64,000 nt of DNA from Deltaproteobacteria bacterium GWA2_38_16 (lineage in GTDB: Bacteria; Bdellovibrionota; JACOXK01; 2-02-FULL-40-11). Under the pieces are notes generated by a model. The model made no database searches, had not been told where the DNA came from, and worked only from the letters and a program-made list of their open reading frames with translations. The stretch covers positions 174,938 to 238,937 of the forward strand of contig MGPE01000002.1 of NCBI GenBank assembly GCA_001797335.1, given 5' to 3'. The translations under genes were made by a program, and so were the position numbers. The first letter of the stretch is position 1; each line of letters starts with the position of its first letter. Below, in pieces: positions 35,706 to 51,795 of the stretch.

Positions 35706-35735
35706 GATCCCCGATCAAGTCGGGGATGACGATAT
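35706..35735. repeat. 30-bp palindromic repeat, copy 2
   Basis: Identical to 34978-35007. Confidence 0.9.
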
Positions 35736-36887
35736 TTGAATCACTTCACTCTGCTCAATCGCCTCTTCGATGAGGGATGGCAAAGAAGGAATTTTTTCTT
35801 CCTCCATTAGCACTTGAGAAAGTTTAGCCTGAGTAGCTGGGTTTTTAGGCTGGAAAAGCGTACAGCAATCATCAAACGGACGAATGGAAATATCAAACGT
35901 TCCAATGTGTTTAGCCAAATTAACGGTTTCTTGTTTATTAAAAGCCACAAGCGGGCGAAGAATAAGAATATCGGTTGATTGGCTAATGGTAGACAAATTT
36001 CCCAAGGTTTGACTGGCCACCTGCCCCAGGCTTTCTCCCGTCACCAAAGCCTTATACCGATTCTTTTGAGCCACCGCTGTTGCAATCCGTTGCATAGCTC
36101 TTCGATAGAGAACAGTTCGAAATCGTTCATTGGAATGTTTAGCAATTTCTTCTTGAATTTTACTAAAAGAAATTAAAAAAAGACGAGAAGGATGCTGATA
36201 CTGAGTGACTGTTTTTGCCAACTCAATTACTTTTTCTTTGCTCTGTTCTCCAGTATAGGGATACGAGTAAAAATGAATAAATCCTACAGTACATCCCCTC
36301 TTCATCATCAGATAAGCCGCTACGGGAGAATCAATTCCTCCAGAAAGTAACGTCAAGACAGATCCACCGGTTCCCACGGGTAATCCACACAATCCTTTTT
36401 CTTTTTCCAAATACAAAAAAGTTCCTTCTTGCCTGATCTCAATGCCCAATTCAAGATCTGGATGAGTGAGATTCACAGACAACATGGGAAATTGAGGAAG
36501 TAAAAAATTAGCTATTTCAATATTGGTATCCTGAGAAGTCAGTGGAAAACGCTTGTCTACTCGATTCGTGGTCACCCGAAAACTTTTAGCTGTTAAAAGC
36601 CCACAGGAATGTAGCAATTCTAATGATCGTTTTTTAATTTCTTCCAAATCCGGTGCGCATTCTACAATGGGACTAAATGAAGCAATACCAAATATTTTTT
36701 TAAGCTTCTCACGAATAGATTCTTCGCGTTGCTCAGAATGACCGGAAAGAAAAATTCGCCCCCATAAGCGTTCACATCGAGGAGCACAGTCTTTTAACTG
36801 ATGACGAATATTAGCAATAAGTTGTTTTTCAAAGATGCGTCTATTTTGCCCTTTGAGAGCCAACTCATCATATCTAATGAGATACAT
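35715..36887 (-). CDS. thiI: tRNA 4-thiouridine synthase ThiI
   Basis: YDELALKGQNRRIFEKQL, SGGIDSPVAAYLMMKRG PP-loop, VTGESLGQVASQT. Confidence 0.93.
   Translation of the reverse strand: MYLIRYDELALKGQNRRIFEKQLIANIRHQLKDCAPRCERLWGRIFLSGHSEQREESIREKLKKIFGIASFSPIVECAPDLEEIKKRSLELLHSCGLLTAKSFRVTTNRVDKRFPLTSQDTNIEIANFLLPQFPMLSVNLTHPDLELGIEIRQEGTFLYLEKEKGLCGLPVGTGGSVLTLLSGGIDSPVAAYLMMKRGCTVGFIHFYSYPYTGEQSKEKVIELAKTVTQYQHPSRLFLISFSKIQEEIAKHSNERFRTVLYRRAMQRIATAVAQKNRYKALVTGESLGQVASQTLGNLSTISQSTDILILRPLVAFNKQETVNLAKHIGTFDISIRPFDDCCTLFQPKNPATQAKLSQVLMEEEKIPSLPSLIEEAIEQSEVIQISSSPT
36717..36745. repeat. In-frame palindromic element inside thiI
   Basis: AGATTCTTCGCGTTGCTCAGAATGACCGG, translated as SGHSEQREESI in the thiI frame. 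Confidence 0.65.
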
Positions 36888-38093: not shown

Positions 38094-39344
38094 ATGAAAA
38101 AGACCTGGTATTTAATATTGGGCACGGTCTGGTTCTTTCAGTTGACTCTTTGGGCATGGCCAAAGTTTGAGTATGATCCTCACCATCCTTTTTTAAGCAC
38201 GGACTTTCAAAAAGAGATAAATCTCCTGACTCAATCCGAAGTCACGTATGGCAACCACGTAGAACTTTTAATTGATGCCCTCTCTTCTTTGACCAAAAAA
38301 ATTGAGCTTGCTAAAAGTGCACAAAAAACCATTTTTCTATCTACGATGATTTTTTTGACCCACCTAGATCCTTTAATGCAAGAATTCTGCGATATTCTCA
38401 TTGAAAAAGCAAAATCTGGGGTTTCCGTTTATTTTATTATGGACGAAGCCAATTCTTATGTCGATAGTGGCATCTTTAAAAAACTAGAAAGAAATGGGAT
38501 CCACATTGTCTATTTTAATCCCTTATTTGGGGGTTCTGATCCCATCCCTTTTAGTATCCGGATGCATGAAAAATATATGGTCGTTGATGGGACACAGGCC
38601 GTTATCGGCGGACAAAATATGTATGATGAACGCTATCCCTTTTTACCTTTTGAGGCGATGAACTGGAGAGACACCGATATTTATGTAGAAGGCCCTGCGG
38701 CTCAACAAATGGCCAATCACTTTGTCGATGTCTGGGCTTCCATTACCAATCAGACGGGGCCACAAAAAATAGAGATTACTCCCGGCGAATTAGAGCTAGA
38801 TCCCCAAAAACGTTCTTCCCATTTAGGAGAAGCACGTTATCTCTATAATGAACCTTATACGGGAAACAAATGGATTAATGCCTATTATTTAAAACTTATT
38901 CGGCAGGCCCAGCATCACATTATCTGGGCTGCAAATCAGGTTGTCCTCACAGAAGAATTTGAAATCGCTTTAAAAGAAGCAGCCAATCGGGGAGTGAAGG
39001 TTCTCCTCATGACGAATTCCTGGAGCACGGCTTGGTGGCAACCGGTGTGGTATCAATACTTTTTCTGGACGGGGTATCGTCCTTTTTTTGGGTCTAACGT
39101 CGAGCTTCGCCTGTATCAAAGTCGATTTAATCATTCCAAAATCTTATATGTGGATGGGGTCGTCACTTCCATTGGAAGCTTCAATCACGACTACATGAGC
39201 TTACAAAACGATGCAGAGTCTACCGTTGTTAGCTATGATCGCGATTTTAATGAAAAAGTTCTTAAGCAACTTGTCATGGATCTTGAAGATACCTCTGGCC
39301 CTGGATTTTGGGCATGGCTTTTTCAGCTATTTTCTCGTAACTGA
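38094..39344 (+). CDS. Phospholipase D / cardiolipin synthase-like protein
   Basis: HEKYMVVDG and NHSKILYVDG HKD motifs; signal peptide. Confidence 0.85.
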   Translation: MKKTWYLILGTVWFFQLTLWAWPKFEYDPHHPFLSTDFQKEINLLTQSEVTYGNHVELLIDALSSLTKKIELAKSAQKTIFLSTMIFLTHLDPLMQEFCDILIEKAKSGVSVYFIMDEANSYVDSGIFKKLERNGIHIVYFNPLFGGSDPIPFSIRMHEKYMVVDGTQAVIGGQNMYDERYPFLPFEAMNWRDTDIYVEGPAAQQMANHFVDVWASITNQTGPQKIEITPGELELDPQKRSSHLGEARYLYNEPYTGNKWINAYYLKLIRQAQHHIIWAANQVVLTEEFEIALKEAANRGVKVLLMTNSWSTAWWQPVWYQYFFWTGYRPFFGSNVELRLYQSRFNHSKILYVDGVVTSIGSFNHDYMSLQNDAESTVVSYDRDFNEKVLKQLVMDLEDTSGPGFWAWLFQLFSRN

Positions 39345-40759
39345 GCACGTTCAAGAGGTTCGAGTGCCTGAATTTTATAAATATTGGGCGAGACAATCGG
39401 CTGATACATAAACGTCTCATAATCAAAATCTTCAATTTGTTTATTTAATAAAATATAGGCCAGGCAAAAACTAATAAGAGATGAAATTAAAAATCCATAC
39501 CCGTAAAATGGAAAACCTAATTTTAAGGTAATGAGCGTCAGCACCACATTGGTAGAAAAAAATACAAAATTTAAAATAATCGCTTTTTTAATTCCATTAA
39601 AATATAAAATAATAATCCCCATCATCACCACCATGACTTGTAAAAATACTCCTAAAATACCCAACTGAAAAATAGCCAAAAGTTCTTGCCGAAGCTTAAA
39701 GAAATTTAAGATATGGGGGGCAAAAACAATACAACAAAAACTCAAACCCGATTGAAATACAATGAGTGGCTGAGCAGATTTTCTTAAAGATCCCACGAGC
39801 TCTTCTTTAATGGCCAAAAGTTCTTGAAAGCCTTTTTTATTCTGAACCGCTTGGTAATAAGCACGAAATGCAATATAAAAAGAAGTTTCAATTTTAACCA
39901 AAAAAATCGTAAGCGCCGGAATCATCGTTAGATAACTTAAATATAAAGCAGCCCCATACAGCTCATCATTATAAAAAATACCAGAAAGACGCAGAGAGGG
40001 ACCTAAAAACCAAAATAAAATTTTATCCCCCCACAAAGCTCCATTATATAGAAAACCTATCCACATCAGACTTGAAAATTTTTGGTAATAACTAAAAATT
40101 TCATTTGAAAAAAAAGGATAAAATCCAAACTCTTTATAAATGCGCCAAATGAGAAGCGCTAAAATCGTAAATTGTCCCAAAGCCATTCCTGCCATGGCGC
40201 CACTGATTCCATAATTTCTAGAAAATTCAATGGCACAAAGACTACTGATGATAGCTCCCACTAAAAAAGCCTGGGCAATAAAAACATAATTTTTAGTGGC
40301 GCTTAAAAAAATCATGACAAGCCAAATAGAACTCATGGCAATATATAAAATAAGTGAGGCAAAACGAAAGCTCAGAGGAAAATCACAAAAACTATAAAGG
40401 ATAACCCCTACTGCGGTTTGAAAAAATAAGACCACCCCCCAAATGGATAAAAAGGAAGTAAAAATAACTCTGGATTCTTTTAAAAAAAGTTTATCCGCAA
40501 GATAGCGTGTAATGACCATATCCATACATCCAAAAAAAAGAAGGCTAAAGGCAAAGGTGTAGGTAATAATGGTGGTAAAGATATCCGCTTCTTCAATAGT
40601 TAAGAAACGAGAAGCAAAAAGTTGAATCACGGCTAAACATACAATGGTAAATATCCAGGGGCCGGAAGAAATAACAGAACCGAAGAGATATCCTTTGAGG
40701 ACTCCGGTATAGGTGTCTGCCTCTAGAGCTTTTTTTAATCTAAATCCAATCCCCGCCAT
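39323..40759 (-). CDS. pelG: Pel polysaccharide export protein PelG
   Basis: MAGIGFRLKKALEADTYTGVLKGYLFGSVISSGPW, polytopic; directly follows pelF. Confidence 0.9.
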   Translation of the reverse strand: MAGIGFRLKKALEADTYTGVLKGYLFGSVISSGPWIFTIVCLAVIQLFASRFLTIEEADIFTTIITYTFAFSLLFFGCMDMVITRYLADKLFLKESRVIFTSFLSIWGVVLFFQTAVGVILYSFCDFPLSFRFASLILYIAMSSIWLVMIFLSATKNYVFIAQAFLVGAIISSLCAIEFSRNYGISGAMAGMALGQFTILALLIWRIYKEFGFYPFFSNEIFSYYQKFSSLMWIGFLYNGALWGDKILFWFLGPSLRLSGIFYNDELYGAALYLSYLTMIPALTIFLVKIETSFYIAFRAYYQAVQNKKGFQELLAIKEELVGSLRKSAQPLIVFQSGLSFCCIVFAPHILNFFKLRQELLAIFQLGILGVFLQVMVVMMGIIILYFNGIKKAIILNFVFFSTNVVLTLITLKLGFPFYGYGFLISSLISFCLAYILLNKQIEDFDYETFMYQPIVSPNIYKIQALEPLERAQLRENS

Positions 40760-42246
40760 TACAAATATTTCCTATACATCAAATGATACTGATCCAAAAT
40801 ATCCTCCTGCTGATAAAAGCGACTTACTCTTTTTTTAGCTACTTCTCCCAAATATTTTTTTAGCTCCGTATCTTTGAGAATTTTAATAATCGCCTCAGCC
40901 GTTTCATGCGGAGAAGCCAAAGAGGTTAAAATCCCACTTCTCCCCAGCACCTGATCTTCATGAGACCGTCCATACAAAAGTTCCCGATTAGCTCCCACTT
41001 CTGTTGCCACAACAGGAACCCCGCAGGCTCCCGCTTCTAACACCACCAAGGGCTGTCCTTCTGAAATACTGGTCAACACCAAAACATCTAAAGTAGAATA
41101 ATAATTCTCTGAAGAAACTCTTCCTAAAAATTCAATAACCGTATCCAAACCTAAAAGTTCGGTTAGGAGCACACATTCCTCATAATATTCCTCATCCTCT
41201 TCTGTAGGTCCCATGATTAAAACCTCAATATTAGAAACGTGTTCTTGAACAATCTTAATAGATCTTAAAAATGTTTTTACATCTTTAATGGGAACAACCC
41301 GGCCAATAAAACCAATTCGAAAACATTGCGGATTTTTTTTCTTAGGGCATTGATCCTCTGTCACGTGTGAAAATCGCTCTACTTCAATACCATTAGAAAT
41401 AATGGATATTTTTTCTGGATCCGCTCCTCCTTGAATTTGTTTAATACGATTCCCATCATAAATCGTTGAAATATGATCTGCATGGGCATAACTTAAACTG
41501 CCTAAAAATTGAAACGTCGATATCCACCATTGTTTAAAAAAACCTGGATTTTTTTGTGCTTTAACATCTGATTCCGATATAAGCGTTGGGATCCACTGGG
41601 CTTCAGAAATATCAATCTTTCGTTCTTCTGTATAAATTCCATGTTCTGTTAGCAAATATGGCTTTTGATATAATAGTTTTGCCGCTACGGCGTACAATCC
41701 TGCATATCCTGTACACATTGAATGATAAAGGCGTGCTTTTGGAATGGGACTGGATAAAATTTTAAAAATCGGAAAATAAATAAATCTAAAATTCCAAAAA
41801 AAATCTGAAAAATCTGTTTTTAATCCACCTTCTTGATAGAGCTGAATAAGAATATTCCAAACCTCTTTTCGATACAAAAGATCTCCTATTTCTACTTTTT
41901 TAGTTCGAGGATTAAAAAATGTTTCATACATCTCTGAAAATAAAGAAACATCGCCACGTCTGGCACATCGATGAAATTCAATAACACGATCCCAAAGATG
42001 AGGATCTATTTTTTGAGAAGTCATTTCATCTGAAAAATTAAAATCAAATAAAAAAATTTCATGAAATTCTTTAATATTATTAGGGATAGGATACTTAAGT
42101 TCTTTTACAGAATCACCAGAAGCCGCTAAATGAATAATTGAAAAATTAAGATGAGGAAGATTTCGAATTAAATCGTATACACACACCGACACTCCCCCTG
42201 CAACATACGGATATGTTCCCTCTAAAATAAGGCATACATCATTCAT
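40759..42246 (-). CDS. pelF: Pel glycosyltransferase PelF
   Basis: MNDVCLILEGTYPYVAGGVSVCVYDLI, GT4 features (GFIGRVVPIKDVKTFLRS; SISEGQPLVVLEAGACGVPVVATEVG). Confidence 0.93.
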   Translation of the reverse strand: MNDVCLILEGTYPYVAGGVSVCVYDLIRNLPHLNFSIIHLAASGDSVKELKYPIPNNIKEFHEIFLFDFNFSDEMTSQKIDPHLWDRVIEFHRCARRGDVSLFSEMYETFFNPRTKKVEIGDLLYRKEVWNILIQLYQEGGLKTDFSDFFWNFRFIYFPIFKILSSPIPKARLYHSMCTGYAGLYAVAAKLLYQKPYLLTEHGIYTEERKIDISEAQWIPTLISESDVKAQKNPGFFKQWWISTFQFLGSLSYAHADHISTIYDGNRIKQIQGGADPEKISIISNGIEVERFSHVTEDQCPKKKNPQCFRIGFIGRVVPIKDVKTFLRSIKIVQEHVSNIEVLIMGPTEEDEEYYEECVLLTELLGLDTVIEFLGRVSSENYYSTLDVLVLTSISEGQPLVVLEAGACGVPVVATEVGANRELLYGRSHEDQVLGRSGILTSLASPHETAEAIIKILKDTELKKYLGEVAKKRVSRFYQQEDILDQYHLMYRKYL

Positions 42247-44234
42247 GCACTTACCATCCTTTGGTTTACAATACTTCTAATCGCCACTTTGGCATATTGA
42301 GAAACACGAGGGTCCGGATCTTGATATGCCAATGTACATAAATTTTCTAACGCCTCACGATTTGAAATTTTTTCTAAAATACGTGCACACAATTTTCGAA
42401 CATCTGAACACGAATGTAAAAGCCCTCGTTTTAATGCGGCTATGGGCAAAATAGAATTTTTAGGATCTTTTTCATTCATTCGGCCATTAATCACTTCTAA
42501 AATATCTACCATGAGGGGATCTGACCAGGTCGTTTGTTCTAAAAGATGTAAGAGAATATCTAAGTCTTCTCCCACCAAATTCGTCAATGCAGAAATAAAA
42601 TATAATCGATGAGAAAGCGATGCCTGCTCCATGACCATGAGCAGTTTTATCAACGCATCCGATTTATGGGCCACATCGCAGTGAAAAAAAGACAAAGACA
42701 CTAAAATTTCTTGATATAAAGTCGCCTCCACAAAACGGCTGGATAAAAGTTTAATGAGCAATGCGACATCCCCATCAATAATACAATTAATAGCTTCTTT
42801 GGCCTTTAATTTCACTTGAGCATCTTGAGATCTCATTACTAATTGAAATAATGGAATAACAGCAGAAAGATCATAGCTTTCTCCTAAAATTTGTGCGGCC
42901 AAATAGGTAATATTGACATCTGGGTAAGAAAGCTTATTCAACAAAACATCAATGAGTTTTTGAGTAAAAAATATTTTTTTATCTTTCGCCTTTAAAGCAA
43001 TATGTTTTAATAAAAGCTGTTGGGTTAATTTAGGAGTTTTTTGATTTTCCAAAAGTTCTACCACAAAAGGCACTTCTTCAGGTCCCATGAGCTGTGCTAA
43101 AGAAAGCATGGCAGAATAACTAACCACTGGATTTCCATCTAATACCTTTTTTAAAATCGGGATAGCTTTTTTATTTTCAGTATAGGCCAGAGCTTCTGCA
43201 GCAGCGGCCCTAATATGAAGGTCTAATTCTTTTAATACAACCTGTGATAAATACAAAAATGCTTTTGGATGCTGCGTCTTAGCCATTTGGATAAAAAGTT
43301 GTACCCGAACTTCTTTATTTTGAGTCTTCCTCATCTTGTAATATTGCTGAAAAGCAATGCCAGAGGATACTTGGTCCAAACAAAATATTGCTACATTTTT
43401 AACATTTTGATCGGAATTGAGTGCTGCTACGTCCAATAACATAGGAACCACTTTTTTATCTTGAATTTTGCTTAGACGCTTACAGGCTTCTATTTGACAC
43501 GTGGTATTCTTATCCTCCCTCAATATGTTGGCTAAATCTGAAATAACTTTTTTTTGCCCCAGTCGGCCAATGGCCCAAATAGCTACGTGACGAATGGTTG
43601 CTCTTTCATCTTTTAAAAATGGCCTTAATTTTCTCCAACCTTTTAAAGATGAAAAACCCATATCTCCTAAGGCAAAGAGGGTTGCATACAACACATCGGT
43701 ATTCGTATCTTGCAAACAGATTTCAAGTTGAGGGATGGCCCTTCTTTCTTGCAATTCCCTAAGCGCATCCACACATTCTTTTTTAAGTTTTGGAGAGCCT
43801 CCTTCAGCCAGCACACGGACTAAAATAGGCCCACAGGCGTTTTTACGATATTTAGCGGCCATTCGGGCTGCAAAAATTTTTCCCTCTTCTTTTGCTTGTA
43901 ATAAAATTTGAACCAGCACATTAATTTTATTTTTTTCAGAGATCACATCCTGTTTTAGAATTTTTTCAATGGAGAACATCGCTTCTTTAGAAATTCTCAA
44001 GCGAGCATCTGATAAAAGTTCCAAAATATACTTTAAGGATGACACAAACATATTTTTTGAAATCCAGCGGCAAAAATAAATCATCATTAAATCATCTGTT
44101 TTATCCATCATCTCCCAAAATAGGGGGAGCGCTTCTTCTGAAGTCGTGTCCATTAAATTTAAATAAGCCTGATTTCTAATCCTCCAATCACTGTGTTGAA
44201 GGCCTTCTAGAATATGTGAAATTTTTTCTTTCAT
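42243..44234 (-). CDS. HEAT-repeat protein encoded within the pel operon
   Basis: Repeated HEAT-like helices (IRHVAIWAIGRLGQKKVISDLANILRED etc.); 4-nt overlaps on both sides. Confidence 0.78.
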   Translation of the reverse strand: MKEKISHILEGLQHSDWRIRNQAYLNLMDTTSEEALPLFWEMMDKTDDLMMIYFCRWISKNMFVSSLKYILELLSDARLRISKEAMFSIEKILKQDVISEKNKINVLVQILLQAKEEGKIFAARMAAKYRKNACGPILVRVLAEGGSPKLKKECVDALRELQERRAIPQLEICLQDTNTDVLYATLFALGDMGFSSLKGWRKLRPFLKDERATIRHVAIWAIGRLGQKKVISDLANILREDKNTTCQIEACKRLSKIQDKKVVPMLLDVAALNSDQNVKNVAIFCLDQVSSGIAFQQYYKMRKTQNKEVRVQLFIQMAKTQHPKAFLYLSQVVLKELDLHIRAAAAEALAYTENKKAIPILKKVLDGNPVVSYSAMLSLAQLMGPEEVPFVVELLENQKTPKLTQQLLLKHIALKAKDKKIFFTQKLIDVLLNKLSYPDVNITYLAAQILGESYDLSAVIPLFQLVMRSQDAQVKLKAKEAINCIIDGDVALLIKLLSSRFVEATLYQEILVSLSFFHCDVAHKSDALIKLLMVMEQASLSHRLYFISALTNLVGEDLDILLHLLEQTTWSDPLMVDILEVINGRMNEKDPKNSILPIAALKRGLLHSCSDVRKLCARILEKISNREALENLCTLAYQDPDPRVSQYAKVAIRSIVNQRMVSA

Positions 44235-45202
44235 GAATTAACCCATTGAATATCTTTCCAATTTCCCAATTCCAAATTAGATTCTGATATTAGAATTGCA
44301 CATTCTTCATCGTTTGCATTGAGTTCACAGGCTCGTTTCAAAATAAGCAGCGCTTGATCCGGACGATGAATAGCCAAATAATTTTTAGCCATATTTTTTA
44401 AAATATGAGACTGTTTGGGATCTTCTTGTAAAGACAATACATATTCATTGAGCGCTAATTTATAATAATAATCCGAAGTGACTGAATCTAAAATTCCTAA
44501 AGAACAAAAGTGCGAATAGAGATCACCCAAATGATTATGCGTTTCCTTATTTTTTGTGTGTTTCAACTTTTCTTTAAACATTAAAATCTGTTCATTGCAT
44601 TCATCTTCTATTTTTTTTAGTTTGAGGGAAGCACAATATCGAAGCTCAGGGTTGGGATCTTTTAAAATACTTTTAATCAAATATACGGATTCTTTGGTTT
44701 TTATTTTAGAAAGCTGATCGAGGGCTCCTTTTTTTAGCTCACTATCGTTATTTTTTAAAATATCAATATAAGGTTCCACCTCTAAACTTTCATGAATGGT
44801 TTCTGCGATATCTTCTTCTGTCATGTCGGGGGGCATGATGTGTAGAGATTGACTCCACTCTTCCTCTTCTGTCTCTTCCTCTAAAAAATCTTGCTTCTGA
44901 GGAGTTAAAAAGAAGGCCCCTCCTAAAAAAAGAAGAGCCCCCACCATGAGAAATAACGAAAAAGAAAAAGCCCCGAGAAAAAATGTCCAAAATAAATGCC
45001 ATGAAAAAATGTTTTGAGAAAGTCTAAAAAATAAAACTACGGAAAAAGAAAATAAAAGACTGGAAAATACATGTACATAAAGAGCGGGAAAAAGATGAGG
45101 GAAATGAGTATTGTGAATATAGGGCCAAAGAAAATAAAGTTCGCCCGCCAGAGACAAACTATAACTTAAAATGGCTAACAAATATTTTACAAGTCTTATC
45201 AC
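44231..45202 (-). CDS. pelE: PelE-like membrane protein (N-terminal TM helices, HEAT-like segment, C-terminal TPR)
   Basis: Two TM regions, ALDQLSKIKTKESVYLIKSILKDPNPELRYCASLKL, TPR-like C-terminus; position between pelD and pelF. Confidence 0.65.
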   Translation of the reverse strand: MIRLVKYLLAILSYSLSLAGELYFLWPYIHNTHFPHLFPALYVHVFSSLLFSFSVVLFFRLSQNIFSWHLFWTFFLGAFSFSLFLMVGALLFLGGAFFLTPQKQDFLEEETEEEEWSQSLHIMPPDMTEEDIAETIHESLEVEPYIDILKNNDSELKKGALDQLSKIKTKESVYLIKSILKDPNPELRYCASLKLKKIEDECNEQILMFKEKLKHTKNKETHNHLGDLYSHFCSLGILDSVTSDYYYKLALNEYVLSLQEDPKQSHILKNMAKNYLAIHRPDQALLILKRACELNANDEECAILISESNLELGNWKDIQWVNS

Positions 45203-46632
45203 ATTAACATATTCAAAAGTTCAATCTCTGACTGCATCTTTGGGCTAAATGAACTTTCTGAAATCACAAATTCCAATTCTTTCTCAACCTCTTGAAAAGG
45301 CTTAAATCCATAAGAATGAATTTCTTCTACTATCTTGGTTTTTATTTTTTGAAGTTCTTCCCCCTGCACGGTCGGTAACATCATCCCAAATGCATATCGT
45401 GACTCATACTGAGAAATTAAATCAATATCCCGAAGTTGATGTTTTAAAATCAAATAAATAGATTTTAAGAGAGAAAGCTGCTTAGATACTTCTACACTGT
45501 CTACTTCCTTTAGTTTTAAAACAAGCACGGACAGGGGTAGGGCATATTTCTTCGCTCTTAAAAATTCTTCTCGAAGTCTTTGCTTAAAATAATCATACGT
45601 ATAACACCCCACAATTTCATCTTGAATATTTCTGGCTTTAACGGTTTGAAAATATAATGCATTTTCCAAAGAAGAAGAAAGCCAATCTAAAATAATAGAA
45701 AACATCTTCATCGTAGAAGGCGTAAATCGAAGAAAAGACAATTTTTCAATCGTTAAAATGCCCATTACCGATCCATCTTTTTTCACCAACGGGCCAGCCA
45801 TGAGCGGCCCCCCTTTTAGGGTTGAAAATTCATGAGAGGTTAAGGCTTCGCGAATGGAAATCATTTTTTTAGTTTCAAAAGCAATGCCGATCAATCCCTC
45901 TGTCTTTGAAACCGCCTTCCCCTCTTCATACGTCAATCTTCCGGGTCCTGTCGCTGAAGGACGCTCTCCATCGTCCGTCCTCGTAAACTGCGGGCGCGGC
46001 GATGGAGCCTCTCCTTCAGCGCCACCCGCACGATAAGTAGTTTTTAAAGTCAAAAGACCATTTTCCAGCATATACAAAGACGATTGCGTTACCTCTAAAT
46101 GGTCACTTAAAATCTGGAGGGCTCCTGCATAAATATCTTCTAGTTTAAAAGATTCTAATCGCTTAGCCGTCTCATAGAGAGTCGTCACCGTTGTCAACTC
46201 CCCCACAATGCGTTTTTCAAGTTCATTTTTAGCTTTTTCTAAAAGTGCTCGTTCTTTTTCAATTTGAAAAAGTGTTTTTTGAAGTTGATTGTTCCTCTCT
46301 TTAAACTCAAAAATACGATAAATTTTCTCCTGACTGATTTGTCCAACCAATCCCCCCATCAATATAAATAGCGCCGGTTCTAAAAGATATTTTAAATCCC
46401 AAAATGTTTCTAAAGCTTTCTTATCAAGCGAGGCATAAAGAAGGGTTGAAAATAAAATAGCTGAACATGTTCCGCTCACCACTCCTGCTACCACTCCATA
46501 GCGAACTGCCATCATGAGAGTCACTAGCCAAAAATAATAGGGATGAAGCTTAAATTCAGGTAAAAATAAGAAAAAAAGGGAAATAACACCCAGCGCAACC
46601 GCTGTTTCCAACAAAAAAGAAGTTGTTTTCAC
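45199..46632 (-). CDS. pelD: PelD-like c-di-GMP receptor (TM, GAF, degenerate GGDEF)
   Basis: N-terminal TM helices; GAF-like region; RDID five residues before degenerate ESRYA at the GGDEF position. Confidence 0.8.
   Translation of the reverse strand: MKTTSFLLETAVALGVISLFFLFLPEFKLHPYYFWLVTLMMAVRYGVVAGVVSGTCSAILFSTLLYASLDKKALETFWDLKYLLEPALFILMGGLVGQISQEKIYRIFEFKERNNQLQKTLFQIEKERALLEKAKNELEKRIVGELTTVTTLYETAKRLESFKLEDIYAGALQILSDHLEVTQSSLYMLENGLLTLKTTYRAGGAEGEAPSPRPQFTRTDDGERPSATGPGRLTYEEGKAVSKTEGLIGIAFETKKMISIREALTSHEFSTLKGGPLMAGPLVKKDGSVMGILTIEKLSFLRFTPSTMKMFSIILDWLSSSLENALYFQTVKARNIQDEIVGCYTYDYFKQRLREEFLRAKKYALPLSVLVLKLKEVDSVEVSKQLSLLKSIYLILKHQLRDIDLISQYESRYAFGMMLPTVQGEELQKIKTKIVEEIHSYGFKPFQEVEKELEFVISESSFSPKMQSEIELLNMLM
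45941..46029. repeat. GC-rich palindromic element inserted in frame in pelD-like gene
   Basis: CGGGT..GCTGAAGGACGCTCTCCATCG ... CGATGGAGCCTCTCCTTCAGC..ACCCG inverted repeat; translated as GGAEGEAPSPRPQFTRTDDGERPSATGPGR. Confidence 0.75.
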
Positions 46633-47000
46633 TGCTTCGTCATTTCTTTAATTTTTGTCACTAATTCGTTGGGCTGATACGGTTTTTTTACAATATATAC
46701 GTTTAACTCTAAAAGTTTTTGATGCTCATCATGAGTAAGTCCTTTAGCAGTCAGCATCATAATATGGAGGTCTTTGGTTTTTAAAGACCGTCGGATTTCT
46801 TGGCACAATTTTAGCCCATCTAGCCCGGGCATCATGTAATCTGTCACTATCAGTGTATAGGAATTTTTTTCTAATTCTTCCATAACCCCTGCAGGGTTAT
46901 TTCTGGTGGTCACAGAAAAATCATGAAATTCCAATAAGGAAGATAATAAAAATGTCACATCTTCTTCATCATCTACGACCAATATTTTATTTTTCACCAT
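46629..47000 (-). CDS. Stand-alone response regulator receiver (CheY-like) protein in pel operon
   Basis: ILVVDDEED, TDYMMPGLDG, MLTAKG, KKPY receiver motifs; overlaps pelD start. Confidence 0.9.
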   Translation of the reverse strand: MVKNKILVVDDEEDVTFLLSSLLEFHDFSVTTRNNPAGVMEELEKNSYTLIVTDYMMPGLDGLKLCQEIRRSLKTKDLHIMMLTAKGLTHDEHQKLLELNVYIVKKPYQPNELVTKIKEMTKQ

Positions 47001-47033
47001 ATGAAAATAATATACTAAAAATGAACCTATTGT

Positions 47034-49343
47034 CTAATGAAAGGAATAATTAAGCTCGGCAATTGCAACAGACTGAACCCCCTTGCTCACTAAAGAGCTT
47101 TCAGAGCTATAAGCATAGGTAGCGGACAAAAATAAACGATCAGACGCTTTCCATTCTCCCTTAAAAAAATAATTCCAAAGGGCCGTATCTTTTACATATA
47201 ATTTTCTTTCTCTATCCTCCCCGATGGCCCCACTCATGAATAACCGAAATTTCGACCACGGGGAATAATCCAATTGACTAACGATATAGTGAGAGAGGAT
47301 ACGCCCCACTAAAGGAGAATGAGCCACTAACAGTTCATTTTGAACGGCATGCTGATAGTCTAAAAAATATCCTATTTCAATCTTTGGTTTTTTAAAAAAA
47401 GCAAAGAGCGTTTTAACGGCCCCTGTTCCCACATGAGCCTTCCCTTTTCCTCGATCTGTAAAATACGCATTCCATCCTGTTCCTGTAATGAGAGTAAAAC
47501 GATTATCCAAAAAATATTCTGGCCGATATTCCCCGTATAGATCTCCTCCACTTTTAGTGCCTTTATATCGAATGGCATCAAGCGGAGAAGTCCAAAGCTC
47601 ATGAAAACGTCCCGTCATATCCACATAAAGTCCTTTGGCCATATCCCAGGTGATCTCTCCTACCGTCCCCATCGTTGAAAAAAGTCCTCCCATATACGCC
47701 TGAGGTTCTATGCTGATATTGATATTGTGGGTCACATCATATTTTATCCCCATTCCTACCGTTGAAATATCTTCCCGAATAGCAGGTGCTAAAGCGGTAT
47801 CTTTAACGCTAAGCCATCGATATCTCCCTGCCATTTGAAAACGATTAACCAAATATTTAGAAGCCTTAGTTTCCGAATGATGCGTAAATTCTCCCTGCCT
47901 TGATTTTTTATCCACCGTCTCTATATATTTATATTCTGTAAAAACCTTCCAGGCAGTTTGCTTTTTAATTTCTTTTCTAAACCATTCTAAAGAAGGATCT
48001 GAAAGATCTTGGAGAGCCCGGAGAGAATAAGAAGCTTTAAAATAGTCTTTTTGACTCACAAGCTGGGGCACTTTTAAAGACACCAATGCCACCTGCACTT
48101 CTTTGTCTTTAAGATGACGACTCACATATGCTTCTAAATAGGTTTTGGCTTGCTCAGAGTCTCCTTGCCAAAAATATAAAAATCCTAATTGACGTTTATA
48201 GCTGTCATTATGGGGCTCAAGACGACTCAAGTATTGATAAGCCGTCACGGCTTCTCCATGACGATTAGACCAAAGAGCTGTCTGAGCGATGCCTTCCCAA
48301 GCTCTTTTATTGTTGGGATCTTCCTCTTTAATTTGTTGATATGTTTTTAAAGCCTCTTTCAACTCATGTTTCCAAATATAAATTTGTGCCAGTTCGAATT
48401 GATAATCTTTGTTTTTAGGAAATTGCTGTGCCAAAAGCATATAGGCCGTGTGCGCCTTATCCAACTGGTCGATCTGAACATAAAAAGCTGCTTTCTTTTC
48501 TTGCCAATAAATTTTATTTGGCCAAGAAATTTTATCTGGAGAATTTTTCTCTAAATTTTCATACCACTGTTCAGCTTCATCAAATTTCTTTTGTTCTATT
48601 TTAATCTGCCCCACATGATCAAATACCTGAATATCAGTATCATTCATTTTTTTTGACTTATAAATCTCAGGAGATCTTAAATCCACGTAGGCCAAATATT
48701 GTTCCAGTGCTTTATCTAAATGTTCTTTCCATTCATAGGCATCGGCCAAAATAAATCTAAATTCAGGGTCTTTCTTATTTTTCCGAACCAAATCTTCGTA
48801 AATAGCGATTCCTTTTTCATACTCTCCTAAATGCATATAGGTATCTGCCAAGTCGTGATAATAAGAAGTTTCTTTGGGTTTAAGTTTAATCAGTTCTTGA
48901 TGATGAGGAACAGCCTTATCCAATTTTTTATACCAATGGTAAAAATCCGCTAATCGCTCATGTGTCTCAACATTGTTCGGAGCCAGGCGAGCCATTTCTT
49001 CTAACTGTGCCAGTTCATCCTTCACCCGATTACTCCATCGATATAATTGTGCCAATCGCTGTCGATATCCCACATGATGAGGGCGAAGCTCTACCAATCG
49101 TTCATAGAGTTTAAGTTCTTTTTCTGAAGCTCCTTGAGATTCTGCATACAAAGCTAAATCTTTTAAAAGCCGTGGGTCATCGGGATGTTTTAAAAGTTCC
49201 GCCTCTAAAATTTGAAATGCTTCTTCCCACTGAAAGCTTGCCATATACATTTCTGCTAAACGTCGTCCTCGAGGAAAAAGGGCATAAGCCACCGCTATAA
49301 AAATGATAATAAGCACAACCACTTTCCAAGAGTTAAATTTCAT
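47034..49343 (-). CDS. pelB: PelB-like TPR plus outer-membrane beta-barrel protein
   Basis: N-terminal TM, many TPR motifs, C-terminal beta-rich region ending ...AIAELNYSFH; pel synteny. Confidence 0.72.
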   Translation of the reverse strand: MKFNSWKVVVLIIIFIAVAYALFPRGRRLAEMYMASFQWEEAFQILEAELLKHPDDPRLLKDLALYAESQGASEKELKLYERLVELRPHHVGYRQRLAQLYRWSNRVKDELAQLEEMARLAPNNVETHERLADFYHWYKKLDKAVPHHQELIKLKPKETSYYHDLADTYMHLGEYEKGIAIYEDLVRKNKKDPEFRFILADAYEWKEHLDKALEQYLAYVDLRSPEIYKSKKMNDTDIQVFDHVGQIKIEQKKFDEAEQWYENLEKNSPDKISWPNKIYWQEKKAAFYVQIDQLDKAHTAYMLLAQQFPKNKDYQFELAQIYIWKHELKEALKTYQQIKEEDPNNKRAWEGIAQTALWSNRHGEAVTAYQYLSRLEPHNDSYKRQLGFLYFWQGDSEQAKTYLEAYVSRHLKDKEVQVALVSLKVPQLVSQKDYFKASYSLRALQDLSDPSLEWFRKEIKKQTAWKVFTEYKYIETVDKKSRQGEFTHHSETKASKYLVNRFQMAGRYRWLSVKDTALAPAIREDISTVGMGIKYDVTHNINISIEPQAYMGGLFSTMGTVGEITWDMAKGLYVDMTGRFHELWTSPLDAIRYKGTKSGGDLYGEYRPEYFLDNRFTLITGTGWNAYFTDRGKGKAHVGTGAVKTLFAFFKKPKIEIGYFLDYQHAVQNELLVAHSPLVGRILSHYIVSQLDYSPWSKFRLFMSGAIGEDRERKLYVKDTALWNYFFKGEWKASDRLFLSATYAYSSESSLVSKGVQSVAIAELNYSFH

Positions 49344-49346
49344 ACT

Positions 49347-51170
49347 TTATTTTTTTACCACCAATTCATAGGGGCCCACATCTTTAAGTGAAATATAAAA
49401 AGCCCCCCCCTGTGTTTTAATTCCTTTAATCCCACGGGATTTTTTTAAATCTATCTCTATCCCTTGATCAAATCTCAAGGTTCTTAATTTCCCAACATCT
49501 TCCACTTTCCATCCAGAGGAAGTTTTAAAAATTTTCACACTTAAAAATCCTTGCAATATGTCTATATAATGCGTTGTAAAAATGGGAAATACAGGCTGAG
49601 AAAGCACCCACTCATAAATTGCTTTTAAGCTATTTAAAGCTGCCGATCTTTCTCCAATATAAAAATGATAATAAATATTAATAGGAGAAATTCTTCTGGG
49701 ATTTTCTGTCCGTTTAAAAGTTTCAATCACATTTTTAAATGCTCCATAATTTTCTGTCCAAAATTCCGTGTAAAGATATTCAGACCCTGCTCGAGACAAA
49801 GGTTGAGCATATTCCCCCACTTGTCGAAACAATGGCTTTACATAAAAATAGGAGGGATGATCTTCATCAAAAAAAGATTCATGGCCATTGATGTTATAAA
49901 GCCCCGCTTTTTGAGTCAGTGCGATGGCCTCTTCGGGAGGATTACACATGCCACTCCATAACATCATCGTTACTTTTTTATTTTTTTGGAGAAGATGCTG
50001 ATTAATAAAATTCCGACAGCCCACAATTTCTTTTTCAGTGCTAAACGTATATCCCCGTAAATTCATCCCCATGGTTTTAGTCTCCCAATCCATCGGATGA
50101 GAATATCCATGACACCCTGCTTCTACGGTAGGAAGACTAAAAATATCTTTAGCCACTCGAATACTTTGGCTATTGCCATAGTGTTTTTCATCCACCTCAG
50201 CGGCAATCACAGAAATCGTATGAGGAATTTTAAATTTTCGAAGAATTTCTTCTAAAACTATTTCAGAACTATATTGTTTGTGTTTAATTTGGCTGACATT
50301 GATGAATCCATCTCCATCCACATGAATAAATAAAATTCGTTTACCTTCCAAGGTTGTTACATCCGGGTGGGGAACGTGTTTAAGGTCCAACACTTCTTCT
50401 AAAAATAAAAAAGGATTAAGTCGCCATTGTTTAAATCCTGTATTTTGATCCTCATAAAACGTATATTCCTGAGCAACATATCCACCCATCGGTGTTTTAA
50501 TCACCTCATCAAAAGATTCTAAAGAAGATCTTTCTTTTACAGATAAATATACCTTATTTTGGGGATTTTGAGACTTCACCTGAACATAATTTTTCACTTC
50601 ATTGGAAAAGGAACGCTCAAATTCCACCATCTGACTTACTTTTTTCGTTATTTCTAAACGCCAGGGACTTTCTTTCTTTCCCCCTTTCCATTCCAGCCCC
50701 ATCCTTTTAAATACATCTCGAGCTTCTTCACTATCTGGAGCTGCCCCCACCTCTCCCAAAATAATTACCTTTCTCCCCTCTTTCAGCTGCTGAATCAACC
50801 ATTGTCCATAGGCATGTGGATCTGTCATGATATTATCTTCAAACCAACTCATCACAGCTCGATACTTTTTCATCTCTATAGACGAGGGGAAATGCCCCTG
50901 GTTTACATCCCAGTAGGTCACTTTCATTCCTAAATAATTTAGGGGCATTTCAAGAGCCTCAAAAATAAGATTTTGATCTGAACGATTGCCTTTGGATAAA
51001 ATCACTTTTTGTTTTCCCCGAACACCGGCATGGGGATTTTCAAAATATTCCCCCATTTTTTTATCCTTCCCTTCTGAGCTGTCATATAGAGCTAAAATAT
51101 CTCTCTTCACCTCTACTTCTTCGGCATAGCTCAAGAAAGACATCAGCATTATTGCTAAAATTATATACAT
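49347..51170 (-). CDS. pelA: PelA-like polysaccharide deacetylase, N-terminal hydrolase region absent
   Basis: ILFIHVDGDGFINVSQ and EAGCHGYSHPMDW deacetylase motifs; signal peptide; first gene of pel operon. Confidence 0.78.
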   Translation of the reverse strand: MYIILAIMLMSFLSYAEEVEVKRDILALYDSSEGKDKKMGEYFENPHAGVRGKQKVILSKGNRSDQNLIFEALEMPLNYLGMKVTYWDVNQGHFPSSIEMKKYRAVMSWFEDNIMTDPHAYGQWLIQQLKEGRKVIILGEVGAAPDSEEARDVFKRMGLEWKGGKKESPWRLEITKKVSQMVEFERSFSNEVKNYVQVKSQNPQNKVYLSVKERSSLESFDEVIKTPMGGYVAQEYTFYEDQNTGFKQWRLNPFLFLEEVLDLKHVPHPDVTTLEGKRILFIHVDGDGFINVSQIKHKQYSSEIVLEEILRKFKIPHTISVIAAEVDEKHYGNSQSIRVAKDIFSLPTVEAGCHGYSHPMDWETKTMGMNLRGYTFSTEKEIVGCRNFINQHLLQKNKKVTMMLWSGMCNPPEEAIALTQKAGLYNINGHESFFDEDHPSYFYVKPLFRQVGEYAQPLSRAGSEYLYTEFWTENYGAFKNVIETFKRTENPRRISPINIYYHFYIGERSAALNSLKAIYEWVLSQPVFPIFTTHYIDILQGFLSVKIFKTSSGWKVEDVGKLRTLRFDQGIEIDLKKSRGIKGIKTQGGAFYISLKDVGPYELVVKK

Positions 51171-51252
51171 ATATTTATAGTGTACGTAAAAATGATGTTT
51201 ACTTGAAGGCTTTTTTTATCTTATGATGGTATCTATAATAAGGAGGTATCGT

Positions 51253-51795
51253 ATGCGCACTTTTCAAAAGTTTGGCATTTTCTTTTTGGCCTTTATTCTA
51301 TGTACATTCTTTCAATCCACCCTTTTTGCTAAAACTACACCCAAAAAAGCATCTACCAAGAAAACAAAAACGGCCCCTGCAAGCCATAAAACTCCCTCTT
51401 CCACTGCTAAGTTATGGGGATTAGGACCTTTTATTGGTACCGACATCGGTGTTAGTTACAAATACTGGTTTGGAGATACCTCTCCTTTTGCCGTCCAAGC
51501 GGCTTTTGGATATGATTTTAGCGATGGACTCATGCTATTTTCAGACACCCTTTACCACTTTAAAAATTTAACAGAGGTCAATTTCTTTTCTCCCGGAGAT
51601 CTTCATGCCTATACCGGAGGAGGTGTTAAAGTCACGTTTTATGAACCCACCGTTTATATTCGAATACCGGTGGGAGCTAATCTCGTCTACCACGAGCCTT
51701 ATGACTTATTTTTTGAAATCGCTCCTGCTATTAAAGTAACTCCTGCCATTGGAGGAAAAGTGGATGTCGGCCTGGGAGGCAGGTATTATTTTTAA
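51253..51795 (+). CDS. Small exported beta-barrel-like protein
   Basis: SD AAGGAGG before MRTFQKFGIFFLAF; C-terminus ...GLGGRYYF. Confidence 0.55.
   Translation: MRTFQKFGIFFLAFILCTFFQSTLFAKTTPKKASTKKTKTAPASHKTPSSTAKLWGLGPFIGTDIGVSYKYWFGDTSPFAVQAAFGYDFSDGLMLFSDTLYHFKNLTEVNFFSPGDLHAYTGGGVKVTFYEPTVYIRIPVGANLVYHEPYDLFFEIAPAIKVTPAIGGKVDVGLGGRYYF

Follow-up and report, generated by a model that had tools for sequence, protein, structure and literature searches.

Positions 39323-51170 of the 64,000-nucleotide stretch of Deltaproteobacteria bacterium GWA2_38_16 DNA analysed here (the window) hold eight intact, contiguous minus-strand open reading frames that, judged by sequence, are certainly a Pel locus. 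We consider it probable that they form a lineage-wide variant of the Pel-type exopolysaccharide operon with two extra cytoplasmic proteins, a receiver (REC) and a HEAT-repeat scaffold. The window ORF listing confirms the minus-strand operon and the gene order given in the initial annotation, which in the direction of transcription reads pelA, pelB, REC, pelD, pelE, HEAT, pelF, pelG; its description of the operon as atypical, with REC and HEAT as additions to the canonical pelABCDEFG set, likewise stands. The locus lies well inside a 334-kb contig of a genome given as 100% complete, and comprises the following features:

39323..40759, minus strand: pelG, polytopic inner-membrane exporter, 478 aa (Pfam PelG PF16933, E 4.8e-118)
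40759..42246, minus strand: pelF, GT4 glycosyltransferase, 495 aa (NCBIfam PelF equivalog NF038011, 440 bits; DUF3492, E 5e-77)
42243..44234, minus strand: HEAT-repeat protein, 663 aa, without transmembrane (TM) helix or signal peptide (HEAT_2, E 4.9e-44)
44231..45202, minus strand: pelE-like, 323 aa, TM helices with HEAT-like and TPR segments (BLASTP to Pseudoalteromonas PelE, E 9e-11 over 258 residues)
45199..46632, minus strand: pelD-like, 477 aa, TM region, GAF and degenerate GGDEF (GAF_3, E 1.1e-6)
46629..47000, minus strand: single-domain receiver (REC), 123 aa (Response_reg, E 3.9e-21)
47001..47033, minus strand: 33-nt spacer at the canonical pelC place, no pelC remnant (spacing and sequence scan)
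47034..49343, minus strand: pelB-like, 769 aa, N-terminal membrane anchor, TPRs and a C-terminal region with barrel-like alternating strands (TPR families)
49347..51170, minus strand: pelA-like, 607 aa, mixed alpha/beta domain and CE21-type deacetylase, without the N-terminal GH hydrolase domain (PelA structure 9cgy_A)

Spacings in transcription order are +3 nt between pelA and pelB, +33 nt between pelB and REC, -4 nt at each of the REC-pelD, pelD-pelE, pelE-HEAT and HEAT-pelF junctions, and -1 nt between pelF and pelG. The pattern of 1-4-nt overlaps with a 33-nt gap after pelB that had been described thus holds for most junctions, the exception being pelA and pelB, which are 3 nt apart. The 4-nt overlaps suggest translational coupling. 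On one flank, a convergent plus-strand gene resembling phospholipase D and cardiolipin synthase (38094-39344) overlaps the end of pelG and is found at the matching place, with 60-62% identity, in three of three sister-genus genomes; on the other, a divergent plus-strand gene directly upstream of pelA (51223-51792) encodes a predicted secreted protein of 190 aa without a family match. Elsewhere in the window, a minus-strand ThiI-like ORF (35715-36887) contains HSEQREESIREKL, which resembles an in-frame translated short repeat insertion.

The identities of PelF and PelG are certain at the level of sequence: both score far above curated cut-offs (100 bits for NF038011), as their earlier description as clear had implied. 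pelG adjoins pelF, and PelG is single-copy in a search of the genome. Among the relatives, pelF of genome G001 is broken into two ORFs (L015:4714-6207), by frameshift or sequencing error, and is intact in G004 and G005; pelE of G001 is also broken. PelA and PelE are clearly identifiable by similarity, PelE showing weak HEAT_2 and TPR matches comparable to the weak pattern in canonical PelE. PelD is assigned from its domains and from matches to PelD structures, and PelB from its layout and a profile comparison. The product is predicted to be a partly deacetylated GalNAc polymer.

Inspection of PelD points to a putative c-di-GMP site within a degenerate GGDEF domain. Through its GAF domain, a PelD profile matches the PelD structures 4euv and 4dmz (E ~1e-7); it also matches the GGDEF domain of the diguanylate cyclase DgcR (6zxm, E 1.3e-9), in an alignment that takes in the I-site region. 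Aligned with other PelD proteins, the window protein has RDID, an RxxD motif, at the I-site and lacks the GGDEF signature. Of the eight sequences in that alignment, two (L019 and L021) lack a clean RxxD. In a Pfam scan the window PelD does not match PF16963 (PelD_GGDEF), a family that also fails on the experimentally verified PelD of Bacillus cereus (PMC7112168). The genome encodes four GGDEF-domain proteins over cut-off, and no EAL-domain proteins were found in it.

The two additional genes are conserved members of the pel loci of this phylum. Full-length PelG occurs in 22 of the 369 same-phylum genomes searched, and all 22 (one cut by a contig end) have a gene of ~635-690 aa between pelE and pelF; HEAT_2 repeats were detected in each of the eight interval proteins scanned, the remainder being assigned by BLAST and position. 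The place before pelD is visible in 19 loci; 18 of them have a receiver-position gene of ~113-127 aa there, and the other, G170, has no REC gene. Neither finding that would have refuted the initial annotation, a pelC in the operon or the lack of the extra genes in every relative, was made: the operon contains no pelC, and both extra genes occur in nearly every pel-bearing relative with a visible stretch. In a tree of PelF and PelG, all 20 sampled REC/HEAT loci fall on one side of a branch with 94/93 support; the comparators were eight plasmid-borne loci without the extra genes, mostly from Proteobacteria, and since those from outside the phylum are few and plasmid-borne, we do not claim that REC and HEAT are exclusive to it.

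An alignment of 18 receivers shows the acidic pocket, phospho-acceptor Asp, Thr and Lys to be intact in the window protein. The pocket is intact in 14 of the 18, most of which share a helix-1 motif close to FLLxSLLxFH, and degenerate in G047, G134, G157 and G189; the receivers of G134 and G189 were assigned by position and size, without a family match. Given its absence from G170 and its degeneracy in four loci, the receiver appears to be dispensable as a phospho-switch. The AlphaFold2 model of the HEAT protein is an alpha-solenoid of ~41 helices (mean pLDDT 80), and a fold search with this model returned only generic solenoids at low TM-score, among them the eukaryotic binding scaffolds CAND1, karyopherins and SF3b.

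No pelC lies between pelB and pelD, as had been noted from the letters, and the absence extends to the whole genome: two PelC profiles, one built from sister-genus PelCs and one from three plasmid PelCs, gave no match at E<=10 in this 100%-complete assembly. The possibility that a pelC had been overlooked within the operon or close by was also rejected: tblastn over the window gave chance-level matches only, and a lipobox scan that recovers all three known pelC genes of relatives turned up no gene for a small lipoprotein in the neighbourhood. Those three relatives, G001, G004 and G005, belong to one sister genus (g2), in which a lipoprotein gene of 169-171 aa ends 3 nt before REC; its product matches the PelC structures 5t0z, 5t10, 5t11 and 9h80 and, used as a query, finds the PelC proteins of distant Proteobacteria (E ~1e-8). 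Nor did the two profiles find PelC in the phylum's 18 remaining pel-bearing genomes, where absence is less certain than in this genome because the proteins are more diverged.

The initial annotation had placed REC in the position of pelC within a single remodelling. This reading fails, as does the candidate role of REC as a PelC stand-in: genus g2 has pelC and REC side by side. Because pelC adjoins REC there, the simplest history suggested by these comparisons has REC and HEAT in place first and pelC lost later and separately in this genome; in other families of the phylum, pelC may have been separately lost or may be unrecognised. Between pelB and pelC, G001 carries ~2 kb with two HNH-endonuclease-like ORFs (L023:3405-5534), and G005 has an antitoxin-like ORF just upstream of pelC. 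These insertions suggest that the pelB-pelC junction is labile, with the look of an insertion site in this family.

The PelA-like assignment holds, and one feature of the protein had been missed, namely the absence of the N-terminal hydrolase domain. A profile of five PelA homologues matches 9cgy_A at E 5.4e-96 over chain residues 257-829 only, and BLASTP aligns the window protein with residues 278-817 of Pseudoalteromonas PelA (E 1e-65). In the published structure of P. thermotolerans PelA, the hydrolase domain comprises residues 37-292 (PMC12022489); since the 9cgy match begins past the bulk of this domain, the window PelA lacks it. Counterparts of the Pseudomonas aeruginosa deacetylase residues H526, D528, D530, H600, H604 and H761 (PMC12022489) are clear, as HVDGD, HGYSH (HxxxH; H354 and H358) and YYHF (H502). 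No PF03537 match, and hence no GH114-type gene, was found anywhere in this genome. In 12 loci of f9, a large family, such a gene immediately follows pelG, and in G004 one lies near pelG; in G050 the gene immediately following pelG, a position taken by GH114 in most relatives, encodes an M74 murein endopeptidase (L018:8147-9004). Work on P. aeruginosa connects the processing of Pel by the hydrolase with the mechanics of the biofilm (PMC9894940). Given that link and the lack of a hydrolase here, it is a reasonable inference that the Pel product would be long and cell-attached.

PelB has a single TM helix at residues 5-23, and its anchor and TPR scaffold are supported by sequence features; the outer-membrane barrel is putative. 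The protein is 52% identical to the 932-aa protein at the matching position in G001 and ~160 aa shorter than sister-genus PelB, a point not previously remarked on, and PelB of other families is only 17-19% identical to it. A phylum PelB profile aligns with canonical PelB (probability 98%, E 4.6e-14, 589 columns including the anchor), a score of a kind that repeats inflate. hhalign of the barrel regions of window, other-family and canonical PelB gave no match, so that sequence comparison is no test of this barrel, and single-sequence AlphaFold2 of PelB reached pLDDT 41, too low for use. In G047, pelB is apparently divided between two genes, a TPR gene of 358 aa and another of 472 aa (L022:8040-10569).

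In the working scheme that we propose as probable, PelF would polymerise the chain, PelG, PelD and PelE would carry the polymer across the inner membrane under c-di-GMP control through the PelD RxxD, the PelA deacetylase would render it cationic, and PelB would export it here without the PelC ring. The roles of HEAT and REC are those that we infer: HEAT would be a cytoplasmic solenoid that holds PelF to PelD and PelE as an adaptor of the PelD/E/F/G synthase. REC would dock on the HEAT/PelD/E/F assembly, where a receiver with an intact pocket would act as a second, phosphorylation-dependent input and one with a degenerate pocket would have a structural part. To the boldest form of this scheme, in which a dedicated HEAT-solenoid adaptor and a receiver together would add a phospho-signal to c-di-GMP control and PelB would export without a PelC ring, we give somewhat less than an even chance.

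In P. aeruginosa, PelB is described as bearing an essential dodecameric ring of PelC (PMC12141448), and modelling of PelABC led to PelC being proposed as an electrostatic funnel (PMC12022489). A Gram-negative machine without PelC may thus function poorly or fail altogether, and the absence here would mean that PelB is less demanding or else that the machine is weak. The latter would be expected of a decaying or low-function operon, in which pelC and the PelA hydrolase were lost and PelB shortened under relaxed selection, the rest persisting for now. The essential role of PelC, a PelB of 769 aa against 932 in G001, a genome without a hydrolase gene and the foreign ORFs just upstream of pelC in G001 and G005 all fit such decay. 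We nevertheless regard it as unlikely, since all eight ORFs are intact and tightly overlapping, the deacetylase motifs and the PelD I-site are retained, and the 18 other genomes without recognisable PelC keep the remainder of the operon, which makes the absence compatible with long-term retention. Less probable again is that a lipoprotein gene elsewhere in the genome, unrelated to pelC or diverged beyond the reach of the profiles, maintains the function of PelC. PelC is a short, fast-diverging protein, and the low identity of other-family PelB to the window protein implies that PelC in those families could be unrecognisable; however, the other Pel proteins of the window are roughly 47-70% identical to those of the sister genus, whose PelC reaches distant Proteobacteria and yet finds nothing here.

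Most doubtful, in our estimate, is a passenger role for REC and HEAT, in which the two would work in another pathway and have only the transcript in common with the pel genes. Stand-alone receivers and HEAT proteins are promiscuous, the operon has no histidine kinase gene, and G170 does without REC; against this stand the fixed positions of both genes over ~20 divergent loci, their translational overlap with neighbours and their co-inheritance with pelF and pelG. The locus is useful in two respects. Assembly of the Pel inner-membrane synthase and passage of the polymer are unsolved, and two extra cytoplasmic subunits conserved across the lineage are natural handles on them; and the natural loss of pelC, with a sister genus that retains the gene at hand for comparison, lets the contribution of the PelC ring be tested. 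An earlier survey used PelC as its search query (PMC7112168), and would have missed loci such as this one. A layout in which a pel operon or PelF is accompanied by a HEAT-repeat protein or response regulator is not described in the literature that we searched.

With P. aeruginosa pelABCDEFG the present operon shares the A-B-...-D-E-F-G order, PelF, PelG, PelE, the PelD RxxD, the PelA deacetylase and the PelB layout; it differs in lacking pelC and the PelA hydrolase domain, and in having REC before pelD and the HEAT gene between pelE and pelF. The B. cereus pelDEA(DA)FG operon (PMC7112168) likewise combines a deacetylase-type PelA with a PelD whose degenerate GGDEF domain has a c-di-GMP site and escapes PF16963, but is Gram-positive, without PelB and in another gene order, with no REC or HEAT genes described. 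Pel-like plasmid clusters of Cetobacterium, Sulfitobacter and Cereibacter also have pelF and pelG without an annotated pelC, together with a separate endo-alpha-1,4-polygalactosaminidase gene; they differ in having no PelB-type gene seen beside pelF/pelG and no REC or HEAT among the pel genes, and those of Sulfitobacter and Cereibacter include a polysaccharide export gene (Wza-type annotation). The loci of phylum families f9 and f4 differ from the present operon in a longer PelA, a mostly longer PelB and, in 12 cases, the GH114 gene following pelG; like this operon they have no PelC that was found, and they share with it REC (or a degenerate REC) and HEAT in matching places.
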